A stretch of DNA of 7,171 bases from Phycisphaerales bacterium (lineage in GTDB: Bacteria; Planctomycetota; Phycisphaerae; Phycisphaerales; UBA1924). Each line of letters begins with the position of its first letter. Positions within the stretch are counted from its first letter, which is position 1. The translations under genes and the position numbers were made by a program. The notes under the pieces are model-generated. The model did no database searches and was not told the DNA's origin. It saw only the letters and a program-made list of their open reading frames with translations. Shown one piece after another: positions 995-7,171 of this stretch. Location of the stretch: contig JALSHW010000003.1 of assembly GCA_026982035.1 (NCBI GenBank), forward strand, positions 1 through 7,171, written 5' to 3'.

Positions 995-1624
995 ATGCAC
1001 AACGCAAATATCCCAGATTATACGGAACTCCCAACGAACAAGCGACTTCTCCGTTCAACCATCATCGCAATCATCTCCGCAGCGATCATCCTCGTCACGA
1101 TCGTGCTTCCCTCCGAGTACGGTATTGATCCAACCGGAATCGGTTCGGTCACGGGACTCAAACGCATGGGCGAGATCAAGACCTCGCTTGCTGAAGAACT
1201 CAAAGCAGATCAATCAAATCAGATCGACTCAGCAAGCATGGCCAATCCTGAACAAGTCAGCAACGAAGTTGAAGCCGTAGCTGTACCTGACAAGGTGCAA
1301 AGTAACGATGTGGGCAGAACAGAAACGATGAGTGTCACCCTTGACCCTGGAAAGAGCACCGAAATAAAGATCACTATGCAAAAAGAATCATCCGTCGAGT
1401 TCAGTTGGTCATCCAATGCAGGTGCTGCTTTTTATGATCTCCACGGGGATTCCAAGGACATCGACTACCATGTGTATGAGAAGGGAACTGAAACCTCAAA
1501 GCAAGGTACGCTTGTTGCGGCTTTCGACGGGAATCATGGCTGGTACTGGAAAAATCGTTCCAACAAACCGATCACAATCACACTCACTGTCGTAGGGGAT
1601 TATCAAGACATCAAGGAAATGTAG
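995..1624 (+). CDS. Transmembrane anchor protein with periplasmic domain, metal-cluster associated
   Basis: The 209-residue protein has a short polar N-terminus containing ANIPDYTELP (4-13), one transmembrane helix (about 20-39), then LPSEYGIDPTGIG (38-50). A charged, Gln/Ser-rich linker follows (about 60-110), and then a beta-rich C-terminal domain (about 110-202). This layout and the EYGIDPTGIG signature match a conserved but functionally uncharacterised family annotated as 'transmembrane anchor protein', which I recall beside CusA/CzcA and HupE-like genes. The C-terminal domain has H150, H159 and the cluster H181-G-W-Y-W-K (181-186), which could bind metal or pack as a folded core. It would face the periplasm. 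Upstream AGAAAGAAA (980-988) is a poor ribosome-binding site, so translation may depend on coupling to the gene before it. The biochemical role is unknown. Confidence 0.75.
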   Translation: MHNANIPDYTELPTNKRLLRSTIIAIISAAIILVTIVLPSEYGIDPTGIGSVTGLKRMGEIKTSLAEELKADQSNQIDSASMANPEQVSNEVEAVAVPDKVQSNDVGRTETMSVTLDPGKSTEIKITMQKESSVEFSWSSNAGAAFYDLHGDSKDIDYHVYEKGTETSKQGTLVAAFDGNHGWYWKNRSNKPITITLTVVGDYQDIKEM

Positions 1625-1678
1625 GGTCAGGATTCATTAATCGAGATCGTAGGGTCCAAAAACTCGGCTGAGGTGATT

Positions 1679-1714
1679 CTTCTGATATTTGGAGGCGAAT
1701 TGGTGAATCAGAAG
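1679..1714. repeat. Inverted repeat, 8-bp arms, downstream of the anchor gene
   Basis: CTTCTGAT (1679-1686) and ATCAGAAG (1707-1714) are perfect complements separated by 20 bases. The repeat lies 55 bases after the anchor-gene stop. There is no T-tract after it, so a classical intrinsic terminator is not supported. It could be a chance repeat or a degraded end of the neighbouring transposable element. The rest of 1625-1772 shows no gene. Confidence 0.25.
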
Positions 1715-1772
1715 CGTTATCTGTGCACGAAAATGTTGAGTTTGATTGTGAGATGGACCAATTGGAATCGTT

Positions 1773-2030
1773 TCAAGCGGCGCGACGGTACGAGCGGATC
1801 AGCCCGCCAAGTCGCTCGTCGCAGATAACGCGTCCTTCGGTGATGATGGGTTCGGCACTTGACGAGAGTATTGAGTTGCCCATTCCCTGATACGGACGGT
1901 CTTGGTTGTAGTGCTCAATGTAAGCGTCAACCGCTCGCCACAGATGCTTCTCGCCGACTGGATGATCCGGCTCATGCATTCGCTTTTGATTGACCGAACT
2001 ACCCTCTTAGTATGGGCATTGATCTTCATA
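1773..2030 (-). pseudogene. Decayed 3' end of a DDE integrase/transposase (rve type)
   Basis: Read on the minus strand, two adjacent frames together give the end of an integrase-core transposase. The first frame (2029 down to about 1961) encodes NAHTKRVVRSIKSECMSRII. The second (about 1961 down to TGA at 1773-1775) continues PVGEKHLWRAVDAYIEHYNQ, then DRPYQGMGN, and ends VCDERLGGLIRSYRRAA-like. In intact relatives these are contiguous (SRIIP-GE-HL). One base, probably a C in the run near 1960-1961, has been lost and splits the frame. The family's catalytic glutamate normally sits in an NAYAERFVRSIKSE-type motif. Here that position is Lys (NAHTKR), so the product would be dead even without the shift. 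Upstream of about 2035 the reading becomes unrecognisable, and the first two catalytic Asp regions are absent. IS481 or IS3-like is the likely affiliation. Confidence 0.8.
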
Positions 2031-2180
2031 TTTTGAAGGAAACCATGTCCATGTGTCCCATAGGGATAGGCATCTGACCAACCGAATATGCTTCGAGCGG
2101 TTCAAGTGGTCATTGGCTCTTCGCCCCCGTTCTTGCTCAATAATCTGTAATACAGCGGTCGGCGAGATACAATGCGTCTT

Positions 2181-2186
2181 AAGGAG
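2181..2186 (+). promoter_or_regulatory. Ribosome-binding site that sets the ATPase start at 2196
   Basis: AAGGAG at 2181-2186 is a near-perfect Shine-Dalgarno sequence, with nine bases between it and the in-frame ATG at 2196. The longer in-frame ATG at 2172 lies upstream of this site and has no purine-rich motif of its own, so 2196 is the better start. No convincing -35/-10 pair was found in 2035-2180. TACAAT at 2168-2173 is an isolated match. Confidence 0.75.
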
Positions 2187-2195
2187 TATGAGACC

Positions 2196-4085
2196 ATGAC
2201 AACAACCGACCGCACATCTAGCTCCCACCAACTCAAGGCCATATCCATCGTTGGCGGTTTCCTTGACGGCCAGCGGTTCGAGCTCTCCAGCAACCTCAAC
2301 TGCATCATCGGGGCGAGGGGGACCGGAAAGACCACAGTGTTGGAGTTCGTGCGATACGCGATGGATGCGATGCCGTCCGATCCAGTCGCCCATAAGCGTG
2401 TGATCTCTTTGGTCGAGAACAACTTGGGTGGCGGACGCATTGAAGTCGCAGTGCAAACGAAGGACGGCTTGTCCTACATCATCAGCCGCTCCGCTGGTGA
2501 CGAGCCGGTTGTGCTGGACGAGAATCGAAACCCAACAGAGATCAAACTGCGTTCCGGCGGGCTGTTCAAGGTGGATAACTTCAGCCAGAACGAGGTCGAA
2601 GACATTGCGGATCAATCCAGTTCCCAGCTTGATCTGATCGACAATTTCAAGATCGATTGCATCAGTGAAAACCAGAGTCGCATCCGGACTCTCAAAGCCG
2701 ACCTGAACTCCAATGCCAGCAAGATTATCCCACTACAGCATAAGGTTGATGCAATTGTAGAGGAACTCAATGCGCTCCCGGGTTTGGAAGAGAACCTTAA
2801 AGCCTTCGCGGATGAGGGAGGCGAAGATGCGGATGAGATCAATAAGGCGCACACTCTCAAATCGCTCCGCGATCGGGAATGGAGAGCGATTGATACCTCC
2901 ATGGGTACGCTCGTCGAAGTTCAACAGACCATCGAAGAGGACATCGGTCGTATCGACCATCGCTTGGCTATGGTGTTTTCCGAAGACATGCTCGAAGGGC
3001 CCAACGGCGATGTCATTCGGCAGCTTCGTTCGGGAATTGGGGCATGCTCTGACGATGTCGATCGACTGCTCAAACAGGTCGTTGCCCGGATTCAATCTGA
3101 AACCGATGCCATCAAGGAACGGGCGGGGCAACTTGATCTCTCACACAAACAGCAGGATCAATCATTTCAGAACATTATTGAGAAACACAAGGAAGTCCAG
3201 GGTAAGGCGGCCGAACGGCATCGGCTGGAGAAGCTTCGGAACGAGTTGCTTGCCAAGAAGAGAGATCGTGAACAACTAACGACACAGCTCGACAGTTTGG
3301 ACTCCGAGCGAGTTCGCTTGCTTGAACAGCTTTCCGAACTGCGTGATGTGCGATTCAAGATGCGTCAAGCCATCGTCGATCAGATCAACGAGGCGCTCTC
3401 GCAGACAATCCGCGTCACACTCATGCAGTTCGGCAATCCAGAGAAGTATCGCACACTCCTCGGAGAAGCTCTGAAGGGTGGAGCGAGAATGCACCAGAAT
3501 GTGATTGCGGAGAAGATTGCCGGTTTATTCTCGCCTGCCGATCTTGCTGATGCAATCAAGATGGGCAATACACAACCATTGGTTGAAAAAGCTGGACTCA
3601 GCGATGAGCAGGCGGGCAAAGTGATTGCTGCATTAGTGGGCACGCAGGTCTTGTTCGATTTGGAGGTTGTTGAGATGGTTGATCGGCCCAAGATCGAGCT
3701 CAATGATGGCGGCACCTTCAAGGAAACCGGTTCGCTTTCAACCGGGCAGAAATGTACGACGATCTTGCCCATCCTGCTCATGGACAGCGACAACCCACTT
3801 CTGATCGATCAACCCGAAGACAATCTGGACAACCGCTTTGTCTTTGAGACGATCGTCGAAAGCATCGGGAGGATCAAGAACAGGCGGCAATTGATCTTTG
3901 TGACACACAACCCGAACATTCCGGTTCTTGGCGATGCCGAACGGGTCTTTGTACTCGAATCAGACGGTACATCCGCGACCAAGGTCAACGAGGGAAGTGT
4001 GGATCAATGCAAGGACGACATCGTGACACTGCTCGAAGGGGGCGAGGACGCCTTCAAGCGAAGAAGGGATCGCTATTCCTACTGA
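2196..4085 (+). CDS. SMC/ABC-like ATPase with central coiled coil, related to the TrlF-type AAA-like ATPase module
   Basis: The protein is 629 residues long from the chosen ATG. The N-terminal lobe has Walker A GARGTGKTT (39-47) and a Q-loop candidate in NFSQNEVEDI (Gln131). A long, heptad-like, charged central section (about 150-400) is predicted coiled coil. The C-terminal lobe has the ABC signature LSTGQKCTTILP (514-525), Walker B with D-loop LLIDQPEDNLDN (535-546), and the switch histidine in FVTHNPNIPVLGDAE (His571). The tail is basic (KRRRDR). This split-lobe layout is that of SMC/Rad50/RecN-like ATPases. The IDQPEDNLDN and THNPNIPVLGDAE wording is closest to the ATPase part of TrlF-type proteins, but no PHP or other nuclease domain is fused. 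The protein is cytosolic, probably dimerises on ATP, and may engage DNA or RNA. The stop lies one base before the kinase ATG. A DNA-repair role is the main alternative to a defence role. Confidence 0.85.
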   Translation: MTTTDRTSSSHQLKAISIVGGFLDGQRFELSSNLNCIIGARGTGKTTVLEFVRYAMDAMPSDPVAHKRVISLVENNLGGGRIEVAVQTKDGLSYIISRSAGDEPVVLDENRNPTEIKLRSGGLFKVDNFSQNEVEDIADQSSSQLDLIDNFKIDCISENQSRIRTLKADLNSNASKIIPLQHKVDAIVEELNALPGLEENLKAFADEGGEDADEINKAHTLKSLRDREWRAIDTSMGTLVEVQQTIEEDIGRIDHRLAMVFSEDMLEGPNGDVIRQLRSGIGACSDDVDRLLKQVVARIQSETDAIKERAGQLDLSHKQQDQSFQNIIEKHKEVQGKAAERHRLEKLRNELLAKKRDREQLTTQLDSLDSERVRLLEQLSELRDVRFKMRQAIVDQINEALSQTIRVTLMQFGNPEKYRTLLGEALKGGARMHQNVIAEKIAGLFSPADLADAIKMGNTQPLVEKAGLSDEQAGKVIAALVGTQVLFDLEVVEMVDRPKIELNDGGTFKETGSLSTGQKCTTILPILLMDSDNPLLIDQPEDNLDNRFVFETIVESIGRIKNRRQLIFVTHNPNIPVLGDAERVFVLESDGTSATKVNEGSVDQCKDDIVTLLEGGEDAFKRRRDRYSY

Positions 4086-4086
4086 T

Positions 4087-5247
4087 ATGGCTGACCAACG
4101 AGACCATCTCGATTTCTCTGTCGTAGTTGACCGGCTTCAAGGGTCACGCGATGCTTACAACTGGCCCCAGAGGCGTGAGTTGGCTATGGCTGCGGTTGAG
4201 CAGCTCGAACGAGAGGGCTCATCGGAATCGCTGATTTCTCTACTGTGGCTCTTATCCGACGATGACAAGTGGGAGGTCCGCAAGGATGTGGCGGACTGCC
4301 TGATGCTGCTGCCTGATGATGAGTTTCCCCGCTTTGCTGCTAAATTGCTTGATGACTCGAACTCATTCGTGCAAACGGCAACTCGTCGAGCAATGGATCG
4401 TCGCCGCCGTGGGGCACAAGTGACTCAGAGAAATCGGAGAGGTCTCGATCACATTCAGGTGCAGTACGATTGCATTGAAAAGACATACGGCTCCGAAGCG
4501 GCTGAGATGGCGCGAAAGATGGCGGAGCAGTTGTACGACCAGATCGTCGGAGCGACCGTCCACGACATGCGGAATATTCTCGCTCCGCTCAAGTCCGGCA
4601 TCTCGGCGCTGACCAACAATCTGCGCAGCGGCGACATCGAACCCAAACTATTTAAGAAGGGGTTGGTCAAGTTGGGGCATCAGGCGGAGATGCTTGAGCG
4701 AATGATCGACGACATGCGTGAATACATGCAGCCGACACCATCCGAGCGTCGGCAAGAGCGATTAGCAGATGTTGTTGAAGAAGCTCGCGTGGCGGTGATC
4801 GACACATTTCAGGCAACGGGACGCGATGCTTCCAGTGTATCAATGATGATCGAAGTCCCAGACAATATTACGGTTGAGATATCGCGTCATCAGGTTGTGC
4901 GTGCAATCAGCAATGTGCTCAAGAACGCTTACGAGGCGTTTTCCACCGATCCAGACACATTCACACGAGGCAATGTTTGTGTGGTTGGCCGGGGAGTTGA
5001 TCTTGAGCGTGTTGAGATCGTAGTGAGTGACAACGGCATGGGGCTGTCCATTGATGAGCTGGCTTATGTTCGTCGATTCATTCCTGGTGGCACATCCAAG
5101 AAGACGCACGGCACAGGCTTTGGTCTTCCCATCGCCAAACGGAAGATTGAGGATCATGGCGGCTCGCTGGCCATCGACAGCGAAGACGGGAATGGGACAG
5201 CGATCACGATCACCTTACGCAGGGAAACTGACGGAGGTGGTCTTTGA
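4087..5247 (+). CDS. Soluble HEAT-repeat sensor histidine kinase
   Basis: The 386-residue protein has no signal peptide or transmembrane segment. Residues about 21-105 form HEAT-like helical repeats (SLLWLLSDDDKWEVRKDVAD, then FAAKLLDDSNSFVQTATRRA). An Arg-rich stretch follows (100-119). The dimerisation/phosphotransfer region (about 145-215) carries the phospho-acceptor His159 in VHDMRNILAPL. The HATPase_c domain shows the N box NVLKNAYEAF (276-285, Asn280), the G1 box SDNGMGL (314-320), and the F/G2 region FIPGGTSKKTHGTGFGLPIA (331-350). All residues needed for ATP binding and autophosphorylation are present, so it should be active. It begins one base after the ATPase stop with no nearby Shine-Dalgarno (the closest AAGG is about 19 bases away), so translation is probably coupled. 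The partner is the regulator encoded next. The signal is unknown; HEAT repeats usually bind proteins or nucleic acid, which makes the ATPase a candidate input. Confidence 0.9.
   Translation: MADQRDHLDFSVVVDRLQGSRDAYNWPQRRELAMAAVEQLEREGSSESLISLLWLLSDDDKWEVRKDVADCLMLLPDDEFPRFAAKLLDDSNSFVQTATRRAMDRRRRGAQVTQRNRRGLDHIQVQYDCIEKTYGSEAAEMARKMAEQLYDQIVGATVHDMRNILAPLKSGISALTNNLRSGDIEPKLFKKGLVKLGHQAEMLERMIDDMREYMQPTPSERRQERLADVVEEARVAVIDTFQATGRDASSVSMMIEVPDNITVEISRHQVVRAISNVLKNAYEAFSTDPDTFTRGNVCVVGRGVDLERVEIVVSDNGMGLSIDELAYVRRFIPGGTSKKTHGTGFGLPIAKRKIEDHGGSLAIDSEDGNGTAITITLRRETDGGGL
5233..5240 (+). promoter_or_regulatory. Strong ribosome-binding site inside the kinase 3' end, for the TTG-started regulator
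   Basis: GGAGGTGG at 5233-5240 lies within the last codons of the kinase gene. Its GGAGG core ends six bases before TTG at 5244-5246. The regulator has no ATG at this place, and TTG overlaps the kinase stop as TTGA (5244-5247). The strong site probably compensates for the weak start codon and favours stop-start coupling. Confidence 0.8.
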
Positions 5248-6347
5248 AATACCACGCTTTGGTCATTGATGACAGCCCCGATATTCTTGAAGATGTCAAG
5301 GGCCGATTGGAATCTCTTGGCCACACATGTGATTGCGTAGGCTCTCAGAAATTGGCCCAGGAGAAAGCAGCTTCAAATGGATACTCATATGTGCTGTTGG
5401 ACTTAGAGATTCCATTCAGCTTCGGGAAACCATCGATGCAACAGTGTGGGAAGAACTTGCTCAAGGAGATCAAGGCTACGCGAGGCCATGAGGACATCCC
5501 CGTCATTGTCATGACTTCTCACGGGCACGACACCTCTGATTTGGCTACTGAAGTCATGAGGGGCAACGGAGCGGTTGATTATGTGAAGAAGCCATTCCCA
5601 AATGACGGCCGGACGCTCGAGAAAGCTATCGAGGATGCTCTTGCTGCAAGCGGACGATCACGACCCGGGGCGGCCAGTCAATCCGAGCCCTATCGGGACG
5701 AGCCTCTTCAGCCATTCGAAGAAGGCGAGATGGCCTATTTCGATGACCGGATCGAACTCTGCGGAATAAAAGTCTGTGGAGCGGTTGGTAGTACCCGGAT
5801 TCGCAAGATACTGGATGAACTACGCGAGAAGAGCGACCGAGGATTCTATCTCGCCTACAGCGGATCGGAGTTGGCTAAACGGATTGGGTGCTCAGTCGGG
5901 GAAACAGGTATTGCATGTGCAGTCAAGGAATTTCGGACCAAGATTGTCGGGGCACTTCTTGGAGATTTGAGGATAGAAGTCACTCGAACGGACATCATCC
6001 AGAGCGGTGGACGCGGATACCGGCTGACGGAGAAGATCACGGTGGTCAATGGCAACGACCCCGTTCGTGACTCCGTAAATGAACCCGATGACCCCGATCT
6101 TGACCCTGTATATGACCCAGAAAACGAACAACAGGATCATCGCCAAGAGTGGATATTGAGCCAACTGCGAGATCGCCATCCCCTTCAGAAAAAAGAGATT
6201 ATGGCACAGTTCAAATGCTCAAGTTCAACGGCGAAACGACTCCTGAGTGATCTAAAGGCAAAGGGGCACATCGAGTTCGTTGGAGCGGCCAAGACGGGCC
6301 ACTATGAGTTCAAGAAGCCCGTTCAGGCGGTTTCCCGCACGATCTGA
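5244..6347 (+). CDS. Response regulator: REC domain plus two predicted winged-helix DNA-binding domains
   Basis: The protein is 367 residues long and starts at TTG. The receiver domain (1-135) has the acidic pair Asp9-Asp10, phospho-acceptor Asp53 in VLLDLEIP, Thr91 in IVMTS and Lys116 in YVKKPF, so it should be phosphorylatable. The loop after Asp53 is unusually long (PFSFGKPSMQQCGKNLL, 57-73). Residues about 163-262 resemble an OmpR/PhoB-type winged helix: a FDDRIELCGIKV opening strand, a central helix pair near SGSELAKRIGCSVGE, and the wing signature GGRGYRLTEK (255-264). An acidic Asp-Pro-rich linker (271-293) leads to a second winged helix (about 300-357). That domain has ILSQLRDRHPLQKKEI, CSSSTAKRLLSDLKAKG and the wing HIEFVGAAKTGHYEF, and resembles the wHTH found at the C-termini of many ATP-binding regulators. 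The role is presumably transcriptional output of the kinase. The first wHTH call is moderate; the second is stronger. Confidence 0.85.
   Translation: MKYHALVIDDSPDILEDVKGRLESLGHTCDCVGSQKLAQEKAASNGYSYVLLDLEIPFSFGKPSMQQCGKNLLKEIKATRGHEDIPVIVMTSHGHDTSDLATEVMRGNGAVDYVKKPFPNDGRTLEKAIEDALAASGRSRPGAASQSEPYRDEPLQPFEEGEMAYFDDRIELCGIKVCGAVGSTRIRKILDELREKSDRGFYLAYSGSELAKRIGCSVGETGIACAVKEFRTKIVGALLGDLRIEVTRTDIIQSGGRGYRLTEKITVVNGNDPVRDSVNEPDDPDLDPVYDPENEQQDHRQEWILSQLRDRHPLQKKEIMAQFKCSSSTAKRLLSDLKAKGHIEFVGAAKTGHYEFKKPVQAVSRTI
6054..6122 (+). repeat. Degenerate 12-bp coding repeat giving an Asp-Pro-rich linker
   Basis: Codons 271-293 of the regulator read NDPVRDSVNEPDDPDLDPVY then DPE. Asp/Glu-Pro pairs recur every four residues (272, 276 as DS, 280 as EP), slip by one, and then resume (283, 287, 291). 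This looks like a decayed tandem repeat of an NDPV-type unit. It separates the two predicted DNA-binding domains and is probably a flexible or extended acidic tether. Confidence 0.55.
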
Positions 6348-6625
6348 CTCGCCCGGACGAGATACGGTGGGGGTGGCAAGAGAAAAGTGGCCACGAACGG
6401 TTCTACAATCCCATGTGGCGGTTCGAAGTTCGGACAGTCACCCCGATTGTTTTCAAGGTCGAGCCCTTTGGCGAACATGTCGAAGGGTTTTCTCATTGTA
6501 GGGACAAGACTTACGCCCTCCATAGTAAAGTTCAAACACACGATTTCGAGGGTGCGCCGCTTTTCGGTGTAATCTGCACTTAGAAGCCATTTCAAAACCC
6601 ATCCGATAGCCCATAAACACTCTGG
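6323..6625 (-). pseudogene. C-terminal remnant of a site-specific serine recombinase, truncated at its 5' side
   Basis: On the minus strand an open frame runs from just after a TGA (6628-6626) down to TGA at 6325-6323. Its best part, 6595 to about 6437, reads LLSADYTEKRRTLEIVCLNF, then TMEGVSLVPTMRKPFDMFAKG, and ends near NRGD. A 'TKR-ILE-CLNF-L-RKPFD-L--GL' pattern is the usual C-terminal end of large serine recombinases with a coiled-coil/zinc-ribbon arm, as I recall them from environmental bacteria. The resolvase catalytic domain and everything before WVLKWLLSADY are missing. The break falls beside the start of the IS5-like remnant, which suggests that element removed or displaced it. The final 38 residues are Pro-rich, poorly family-like, and overlap the end of the response-regulator gene on the other strand. 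Identification is from memory of the family, with no alignment. Confidence 0.52.
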
Positions 6626-6640
6626 TCATGGATGACCAGA
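6621..6640. repeat. Perfect 9-bp inverted repeat spanning the transposase-remnant start
   Basis: TCTGGTCAT (6621-6629) and ATGACCAGA (6632-6640) are exact complements separated by two bases (GG). The putative ATG of the IS5-like remnant (6628-6630) lies inside it. It marks the junction between the recombinase remnant and the transposase remnant. It could be a hairpin that limits translation of the transposase, a relic of an element end or resolution site, or chance. Confidence 0.6.
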
Positions 6641-7171
6641 AGGATGTGCCAGGATGGCCAAACGACATCAACGACGAAAACCCCAACCCACAATCTGGCG
6701 GTGTCCCCTGGCGGCGTCCCGATAAGCTTTGGGAAAAATTTCAACTCGTTCTTGACGAATCGACCAACGCAAAGCACTCGATGGCCTGATCCACCAAGCA
6801 CGCACCGGCTGCCAATGGTGCACCATCCCACTCCATTTCGGCGATCACCGATCCATCCATCGTACCATCTTTGATTTCGATTGGCTATTCGCACCTGTGC
6901 TTGGACAAAGGAAAGGGCACGACAATCCGACGGGGCACACGGCACACATTCACCGGATTGGTGAAGAGAAGTTTGATGCGCAGAGATGCAAACGCCGCCC
7001 GGCTCGCCGCTGAGTGATCGAACGAACACTTGGCTGGCTCAACCAATGGCGTGGTATTCTGGTGCGTTATGCGAAGAAGTCATCGAACTGCCTCGCTTCG
7101 ATCAAACTCGCTTGCATCCTGATCTGGTACAGAAGACTTCAACGATTGACGGTTTTGAGATCGTTTCTAAG
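6628..7171 (+). pseudogene. Decayed IS5-family transposase, internally deleted, running off the window
   Basis: Three frame segments together give a recognisable IS5-type transposase. From ATG 6628 the first frame has WRRPDKLWEKFQLVLDE, like the N-terminal 'D-LWE-I-PLLP' motif, and stops at 6787-6789. From about 6756 a second frame reads RIDQRKALDGLIHQARTGCQ, then W and FGDHRSIHRT, the typical DGI-Y-LRTGCQW region. At 6892-6912 HLCLDKG appears in the first frame again, then GHDNPTG (from 6915), HIHRIGEEKFDAQ and RRPARR in the second. The code then meets TGA (7011-7013) where relatives have Trp (ARRWVVERT). VIERTLGWLNQWRGILVRYA and a CILIWYRRLQR tail follow. Relative to intact members, roughly the central third, including the first catalytic Asp, is missing between 6890 and 6892. 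The Asp of LCLDKG and the Glu of VIERT remain. The right end lies beyond the window. Confidence 0.85.

Follow-up and report, generated by a model that had tools for sequence, protein, structure and literature searches.

The window analysed here, by which we mean the whole stretch of 7,171 nucleotides at positions 1 to 7,171 of contig JALSHW010000003.1 (C3) from a Phycisphaerales bacterium (assembly GCA_026982035.1, a bin of 1.47 Mb that is 56% complete), carries three adjoining genes for a TrlF-type ATPase, a HEAT-repeat histidine kinase and a response regulator with two winged helices. The three open reading frames (ORFs), all on the + strand, were confirmed as real, with a 1-base gap between genes 1 and 2 and a 4-base TTGA overlap between genes 2 and 3. 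As described below, this trio is a co-inherited cassette. Its components in the window are as follows:

2180..2185, + strand: AAGGAG ribosome-binding site of gene 1, read directly from the sequence, 10 bases before the ATG at 2196, a start conserved in the closest relative
2196..4085, + strand: gene 1, ATPase half of an SMC/ABC-like protein of the TrlF type, 629 residues, Walker A codons at 2310-2333 (from NF045780, motifs and comparison with TrlF)
4087..5247, + strand: gene 2, HEAT-repeat histidine kinase, 386 residues, His159 codon at 4561-4563 (from Pfam, alignment and AlphaFold2)
5244..6347, + strand: gene 3, response regulator, 367 residues, TTG start, Asp53 codon at 5400-5402 (from Pfam, alignment, AlphaFold2 and Foldseek)

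The ATG at 2196 is the better start for gene 1, because it follows this ribosome-binding site and because a relative with 80% identity starts at the matching residue. Against the NCBIfam model NF045780 (TrlF_fam_ATP) the product scored 322.6 bits, under the curated cut-off of 350, and the alignment, which begins with the protein itself, spans only positions 285-943 of the 944 in the model, indicating that the fused N-terminal part of TrlF (model positions 1-284) is absent. Similarly, the match to a TrlF of 888 residues starts at TrlF residue 269, with 31% identity. The ATPase half, with its Walker A, signature and Walker B, is that of TrlF; in 12 aligned sequences, the Walker A, the LSxGQK signature, the LxDQPEDN stretch and THNPNIP were kept with few substitutions. 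Assignment of gene 1 to ordinary TrlF was rejected, as the score falls below the cut-off and the N-terminal part is missing. This missing part of approximately 268 residues we take to be a PHP phosphoesterase; the motif IIGLADHGSVDG seen in the comparison with the 888-residue TrlF is compatible with such a domain, and a comparison of these 268 residues with solved structures returned no informative match. A sequence search likewise found no solved structure related to the gene 1 ATPase, which shares RecF, SMC and Rad50 profiles. Seven phage records matched the ATPase at E ≤1e-10, two of these matches covering 80% or more of it.

In gene 2, Pfam detected HEAT_2 (E 6e-6, just under its cut-off), a weak HisKA (E 0.004) and HATPase_c (E 5e-17), and His159 was invariant across 49 kinases. 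The AlphaFold2 model (predicted local distance difference test, pLDDT, 89.3) consists of a helical repeat, a DHp-like bundle and a CA domain, and on our reading of this model the kinase is probably soluble and cytosolic. Gene 3 matched Response_reg and HTH_11; Asp10, Asp53 and Lys116 were invariant across 44 regulators, and its model (pLDDT 88.5) comprises a receiver, a winged helix at residues 155-270 and a second one at 292-356. The Foldseek matches were full-length OmpR/PhoB regulators over approximately 270 columns, headed by RpaA, VanR and MtrA. With a DHp histidine, a HATPase, a receiver aspartate and an OmpR-type winged helix, genes 2 and 3 have the components of a two-component system, HisKA being matched only weakly. 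The PADLOC search gave no match for gene 2 at E ≤1, a PADLOC model standing for Detocs, if any, not having been identified, and weak matches only for gene 3; on these grounds, identity with a named defence system was rejected.

The double-winged-helix profile was matched to its end by 51 of the 79 chromosomal regulator ORFs, and a Pfam scan of nine other regulators of this set (although one of them, from locus L107, is among the 51) detected no enzyme domain. The shorter regulators, from Magnetococcales and Lentisphaerota, had no Pfam output domain and, as we read their alignments, look like single winged helices. Some loci contain additional proteins of these kinds. In genome G085, three more regulators of the same family (L037:7606-8460, L038:8099-8953 and L039:7328-8179) consist of the receiver and first winged helix only, and each lies in a repeated block of shared families without the kinase or ATPase of the trio, and the pattern resembles that of a mobile or defence block present in several copies. 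Immediately or shortly after the regulator there is an extra receiver protein in two loci (L107:14080-14424 and L115:4022-4459) and an extra protein of the second-winged-helix kind in another (L086:12937-13374). This arrangement recalls the separate receiver of Detocs (DtcABC), a two-component immunity system that reportedly has two receiver proteins, a nucleosidase effector and no separate SMC-like ATPase.

The conservation of the trio was examined in 80 loci, which are the best 80 (identity 40% or higher) of at least 408 relatives found by an ATPase-alignment scan of one genome per species and fetched with the ATPase alone. They belong to Planctomycetota, Verrucomicrobiota, Lentisphaerota and Pseudomonadota. 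ATPase, kinase and regulator follow each other in this order in 73 of the 80 loci (regulators called at a profile E ≤1e-12, in some loci by the receiver only), with intergenic gaps never above 14 and 17 bases. Among the exceptions, one locus is complete with its kinase in two frames (L052), one is decayed (L082) and five are cut by contig ends (L053, L062, L064, L069 and L077). For the three proteins, pairwise distances are correlated with coefficients of 0.87-0.90 (69 loci), the maximum of 500 permutations being 0.14. A second set of 101 genomes (the source genome and 100 relatives), some records of which are the same as in the 80-locus set, contained 13 ATPases of gene 1 length in 10 genomes, and two further ATPases at 30-31% identity in frames of more than 900 residues. 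The kinase adjoins 12 of the 13, and the regulator then follows in nine; in G079 the kinase behind each of the two ATPases is cut off by the contig end and regulators start two other contigs, while in G094 the ATPase has an in-frame stop, the kinase is missing and the regulator is a fragment. In addition, G080 twice harbors a kinase C-terminus and regulator without the ATPase (L035 and L036, the second regulator in two frames), and these broken copies suggest repeated loss. The three genes thus form a co-inherited cassette.

This cassette is patchily distributed. The ATPase was found in 15 of 392 Planctomycetota genomes and in 14 of 267 genera, and within the genus of the window the full-length ATPase is confined to two of 21 genomes (G000 and G016), several of these bins being incomplete. 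An earlier note on this DNA, made from the sequence alone, had proposed a tight operon of a TrlF-type ATPase, a HEAT kinase and a double-winged-helix regulator, and had allowed that the genes might rarely co-occur elsewhere or form a fixed core locus of one lineage. The operon spacing and all three assignments stood up to profiles, alignments and AlphaFold2, the gene order recurred across four phyla, and neither alternative was seen. On the ATPase tree, the four phyla need six changes, with a minimum of three, which by itself is no proof of transfer. Between L043 (Sedimentisphaerales) and L044 (Phycisphaeraceae), the ATPases differ by about 0.02 changes per column, the lineage names on the tree being those of metagenome bins in which misplaced contigs are possible. 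Furthermore, the ATPases of L047 (Planctomycetota, in a BREX-like operon) and L049 (Verrucomicrobiae, with type III restriction-modification, R-M) are sisters with a Shimodaira-Hasegawa-like approximate likelihood ratio (SH-aLRT) support of 100. As these sisters carry different defence operons, the cassette appears to have kept its own parts while its neighbors changed. A large serine recombinase lies convergent directly behind the regulator in four loci (L051, L057, L071 and L085), and its family, of which the one member scanned contained Resolvase and Recombinase, is represented in 13 of the 80.

The trio forms the tail end of type I R-M, type III R-M or BREX-like operons at several of these loci. 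In L041, its closest relative (80% identity), a type III restriction enzyme gene lies 74 bases upstream of the trio, L022 and L044 have a type I methyltransferase gene directly upstream, and L049, L057 and L081 have type III restriction or methyltransferase genes there (the methyltransferase of L049 and the restriction gene of L081 being assigned by clustering), while SspC/BrxC-like, weakly PglZ-like and BrxL genes precede the trio in L047. Helicases near the trio were HmaA-like (L096), DrmD-like (L102) and HKD plus Snf2-like (L093, followed by a Mokosh-like gene), and other neighbors included a TmtA-like gene (L055), a CAP12/Pycsar TIR effector (L024) and an OLD-type ATPase (L028). In a first set of neighbors chosen by size and position, six of seven had PADLOC matches at E ≤1e-8; at the same threshold, L050, L061, L066 and both neighbor genes of L080 had none. 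The first sizeable upstream gene in the 80 loci was codirectional within 150 bases in 23 and divergent within 700 bases in 37, with 13 in neither position and seven loci at contig starts. When 40 upstream genes were compared with PADLOC (E ≤1e-15), any one model was matched by three members at most, and the upstream partners are diverse, many without a recognized identity.

The association with defence genes was quantified for three defence-type families lying no more than 15 kb from the ATPase, in 46 genomes that hold 48 of the 80 loci, using Poisson expectations. WYL was found there in 11 of 58 matches, against 0.51 expected (P ~1e-11), N6_Mtase in at least eight of 191 against 1.69 (P 4e-4) and ResIII in at least 12 of 458 against 3.82 (P 6e-4), whereas the control family Peptidase_M20 gave none among those listed of its 167 matches, against 1.38 expected. 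The enrichment near defence genes for which the earlier note had called was therefore observed, and by WYL and N6_Mtase the trio has the character of a defence-island component. Two other kinds of neighbor recur. An exonuclease-like gene lies beside the trio in two Lentisphaerota loci and one labelled planctomycete (L103:13783-14337, RNase_T by scan; L078:8132-8737 and L111:3389-3940, by clustering), and five Verrucomicrobiota loci have, ahead of the ATPase and in the opposite orientation, a gene of family F14 (approximately 244 residues), for example at L104:1008-1736, the member scanned from this locus having no Pfam match.

The trio also occurs on plasmids, in a distinct form. A tblastn search of plasmids with the ATPase returned 106 records, of which we read all six with the plain annotation "AAA family ATPase" among the 20 listed. 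These are from Klebsiella, Leclercia, Shinella, Rhodococcus, Caballeronia and Phaeobacter (Enterobacterales, alpha- and betaproteobacteria, and Rhodococcus), and all six encode ATPase, kinase and regulator in order, the Klebsiella kinase being already apparent among the matches listed. In all six, the regulator joins the receiver to TCAD9, with APH-like matches, instead of winged helices; the kinases are shorter, and no HEAT match was obtained in the three scanned. Piscirickettsia accounts for 36 of the 47 plasmid records in which a protein of the receiver-TCAD9 kind was found (ATPase neighbors checked in part). Behind the regulator of the Caballeronia plasmid, at 1.4 kb, are a DUF1837 gene and a DEAD/DEAH helicase gene, which we take to be a Hachiman pair. 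By megablast, no E. coli genome yielded a near copy of the trio on the K. pneumoniae plasmid. For contrast, four of the plasmid matches listed that are annotated TrlF were read. None of these four has the kinase or regulator beside the full-length TrlF, and in three of them genes of type I R-M or BREX systems adjoin or enclose it. In the type I R-M operon of a Citrobacter plasmid (L143) and the BREX-1 operon of a Vibrio plasmid (L144), full-length TrlF is followed by a protein with an RNA-binding domain, and full-length TrlF seems to be a recurrent R-M/BREX accessory.

The flanks of the trio in the window contain the following features:

1624..1625, no strand: left edge of the variable region (blastn against six same-genus genomes with the HupE/PepSY-like pair)
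1773..1979, - strand: transposase remnant (integrase core; rve_3, E 0.002, weak and below its cut-off)
6341..6592, - strand: C-terminal remnant of a large serine recombinase, convergent with gene 3 (blastx, 51% identity over 84 residues)

The downstream remnant aligns by blastx to residues 445-527 of the 532 in the recombinase adjoining the L085 trio, and decayed mobile elements on both sides, as initially described, were thus recovered, that on the upstream side from a weak match. Nucleotide similarity of the window to the six genomes stops at 1564-1624 in all six cases (one contig ends about 200 bases further on). At 263-1624 lie genes for a membrane protein of the HupE/UreJ type and, by a weak match, for a PepSY_TM-like protein; six further genomes of the genus share this pair, which ends where the variable region begins. 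A remnant of an upstream type III restriction gene was considered in the window and rejected, as nucleotide similarity to the closest relative starts only at 2191 (blastn). Apparently, restriction genes once linked to this trio were lost, presumably as the mobile elements decayed, or were never present, and the relay alone is left.

Taken together, these data are consistent with a relay from ATPase to regulator. As the fused N-terminal part of TrlF is missing, the output of the ATPase must pass through another protein, whereas in full-length TrlF the ATPase presumably controls its own N-terminal part. As the simplest reading, we propose that the ATPase would sense tampering with the restriction machinery or invading DNA, that the HEAT repeats would dock the kinase on the ATPase, and that the kinase would relay the signal by phosphorylating Asp53. 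In chromosomal trios, the phosphorylated regulator would activate its own promoter and those of adjacent, co-travelling defence genes, and in the plasmid branch phosphorylation would fire the APH/TCAD9 kinase-like effector directly. We give this mechanism an even chance of being correct. The residence of the trio in R-M and BREX-like operons suggests, by analogy with PARIS, which according to the available part of one report guards against the anti-restriction protein Ocr (PMC12839542), that the target being watched may be restriction itself. The broader reading, which we hold tentatively and at somewhat less than even probability, is that the trio is a portable guard cassette, in which an effector-stripped TrlF ATPase, a soluble kinase and a regulator with exchangeable output are plugged into R-M or BREX-like operons across phyla and plasmids, so that, when restriction is damaged or evaded, a phospho-signal calls up a second line of defence. 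The outputs exchanged would be the double winged helix, the single one or a domain resembling small-molecule kinases.

Several observations weigh against the proposed relay mechanism. Many of the 80 loci have no recognized defence gene directly beside the trio, only five of ten neighbors in the second set had PADLOC matches at E ≤1e-8, and the ResIII enrichment is modest in a family that takes in housekeeping helicases. WYL proteins are themselves defence regulators, and given their presence the trio may be an extra rather than the main switch. In the window, no sigma-70-like promoter was found at 1600-7171 (3.5 expected by chance) and no regulated target is visible, and the rest of the 56% complete bin yielded only a 27-residue, 25-bit match to the restriction enzyme of the closest relative. 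Finally, G070 has the ATPase and kinase with no detectable regulator beside the pair.

Among the alternatives, a self-sufficient abortive infection system of the Detocs kind is possible, if unlikely: the ATPase would sense phage, and the phosphorylated regulator would stop growth through an enzyme on plasmids or a lethal regulon on chromosomes. This would suit the enzyme-like output domains of the plasmid regulators, the six plasmid records in which no R-M gene is annotated in the trio operon (the gene table being incomplete) and the window trio, which is without an intact defence partner; however, 51 of the 79 chromosomal regulator ORFs match the double-winged-helix profile, no enzyme domain was detected in the nine others scanned (one of them among the 51), and R-M-type genes lie near the trio more often than expected. 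We regard as distinctly improbable a switch for the expression timing of mobile restriction operons, in the style of C proteins or WYL/BrxR, that would delay restriction until the host is methylated and involve no sensing of infection. The trio does end R-M operons in several loci, with WYL genes enriched nearby, and it is patchy and sometimes adjoins recombinases, but such a switch would need neither an SMC-like ATPase nor a kinase, the full-length TrlF proteins that occupy comparable places in operons possess an additional N-terminal part, and in the plasmid branch the final output is a kinase-like enzyme. Least probable of all is a two-component system for DNA damage or replication stress that plays no part in defence, or alternatively a regulator of a recombinase-borne element, as might be read from the RecF/SMC/Rad50 profiles of the ATPase and from the convergent serine recombinase that directly adjoins the trio in four loci and is decayed in the window, since occurrence is patchy, close relatives adjoin different defence operons, the recombinase family is present in just 13 of 80 loci and the neighborhoods examined do not point to a stress role.

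Defence systems are usually described as a sensor and an effector in one locus, whereas the trio keeps its parts while the neighboring system changes. If the guard-cassette reading is true, a transferable phosphorelay would constitute an inducible control layer for bacterial innate immunity, and the existence of TrlF ATPases without the N-terminal part would be explained. The plasmid branch, with its kinase-like output, offers an easy experimental entry, and the invariant His159 and Asp53 provide clean mutants.

Of the known systems, TrlF shares its ATPase half with the trio and is likewise found in type I R-M and BREX operons, but the trio ATPase is without the N-terminal part and is followed by a kinase and a regulator. 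Ppl (PADLOC PDLC02208, NCBIfam NF042955) resembles the trio in a C-terminal ATPase stretch (89 bits in PADLOC and 133 bits in NCBIfam, against a cut-off of 1000), so gene 1 does not match the full-length Ppl model, and Ppl is one long protein, in contrast to a three-gene relay. AriA of PARIS, GajA of Gabija and LmuB of Lamassu belong to the same broad ABC/OLD/SMC class of ATPases, with weak PADLOC matches of AriA and LmuB to the window ATPase and of GajA to a plasmid ATPase; in the trio, the output would be by phosphorelay, and the conserved neighbors are the kinase and regulator, with no TOPRIM, nuclease or LmuA (the effector that accompanies LmuB in Lamassu) among them. NxD-type McrB GTPase systems are restriction operons with two-component genes, according to the available portion of PMC11090510, but they have a GTPase and nuclease core, and TrlF is not named in that portion. 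The accessible part of PMC13092281 mentions HATPase and REC domains in the legend to a figure of predicted, unvalidated systems, and an overlap of these with the plasmid branch is possible. Our literature search, which left most subscription journals and bioRxiv outside its range, found no paper describing the trio; its architecture was thus not found described, while two-component immunity itself is already known. BrxR/CapW WYL regulators are one-component proteins that travel with defence operons; they resemble the trio as regulators accompanying such operons, and WYL genes are enriched beside it, but they are without a kinase or ATPase. The regulators of the trio end in two winged helices or in TCAD9/APH instead of the nucleosidase (PNP) that defines Detocs, and the earlier note, which had seen no effector and set the operon apart from Detocs on this ground, was correct for the window; however, the plasmid trios carry an enzyme-like output on the receiver protein, and with two-component signalling in common the likeness to Detocs is closer than was then supposed.

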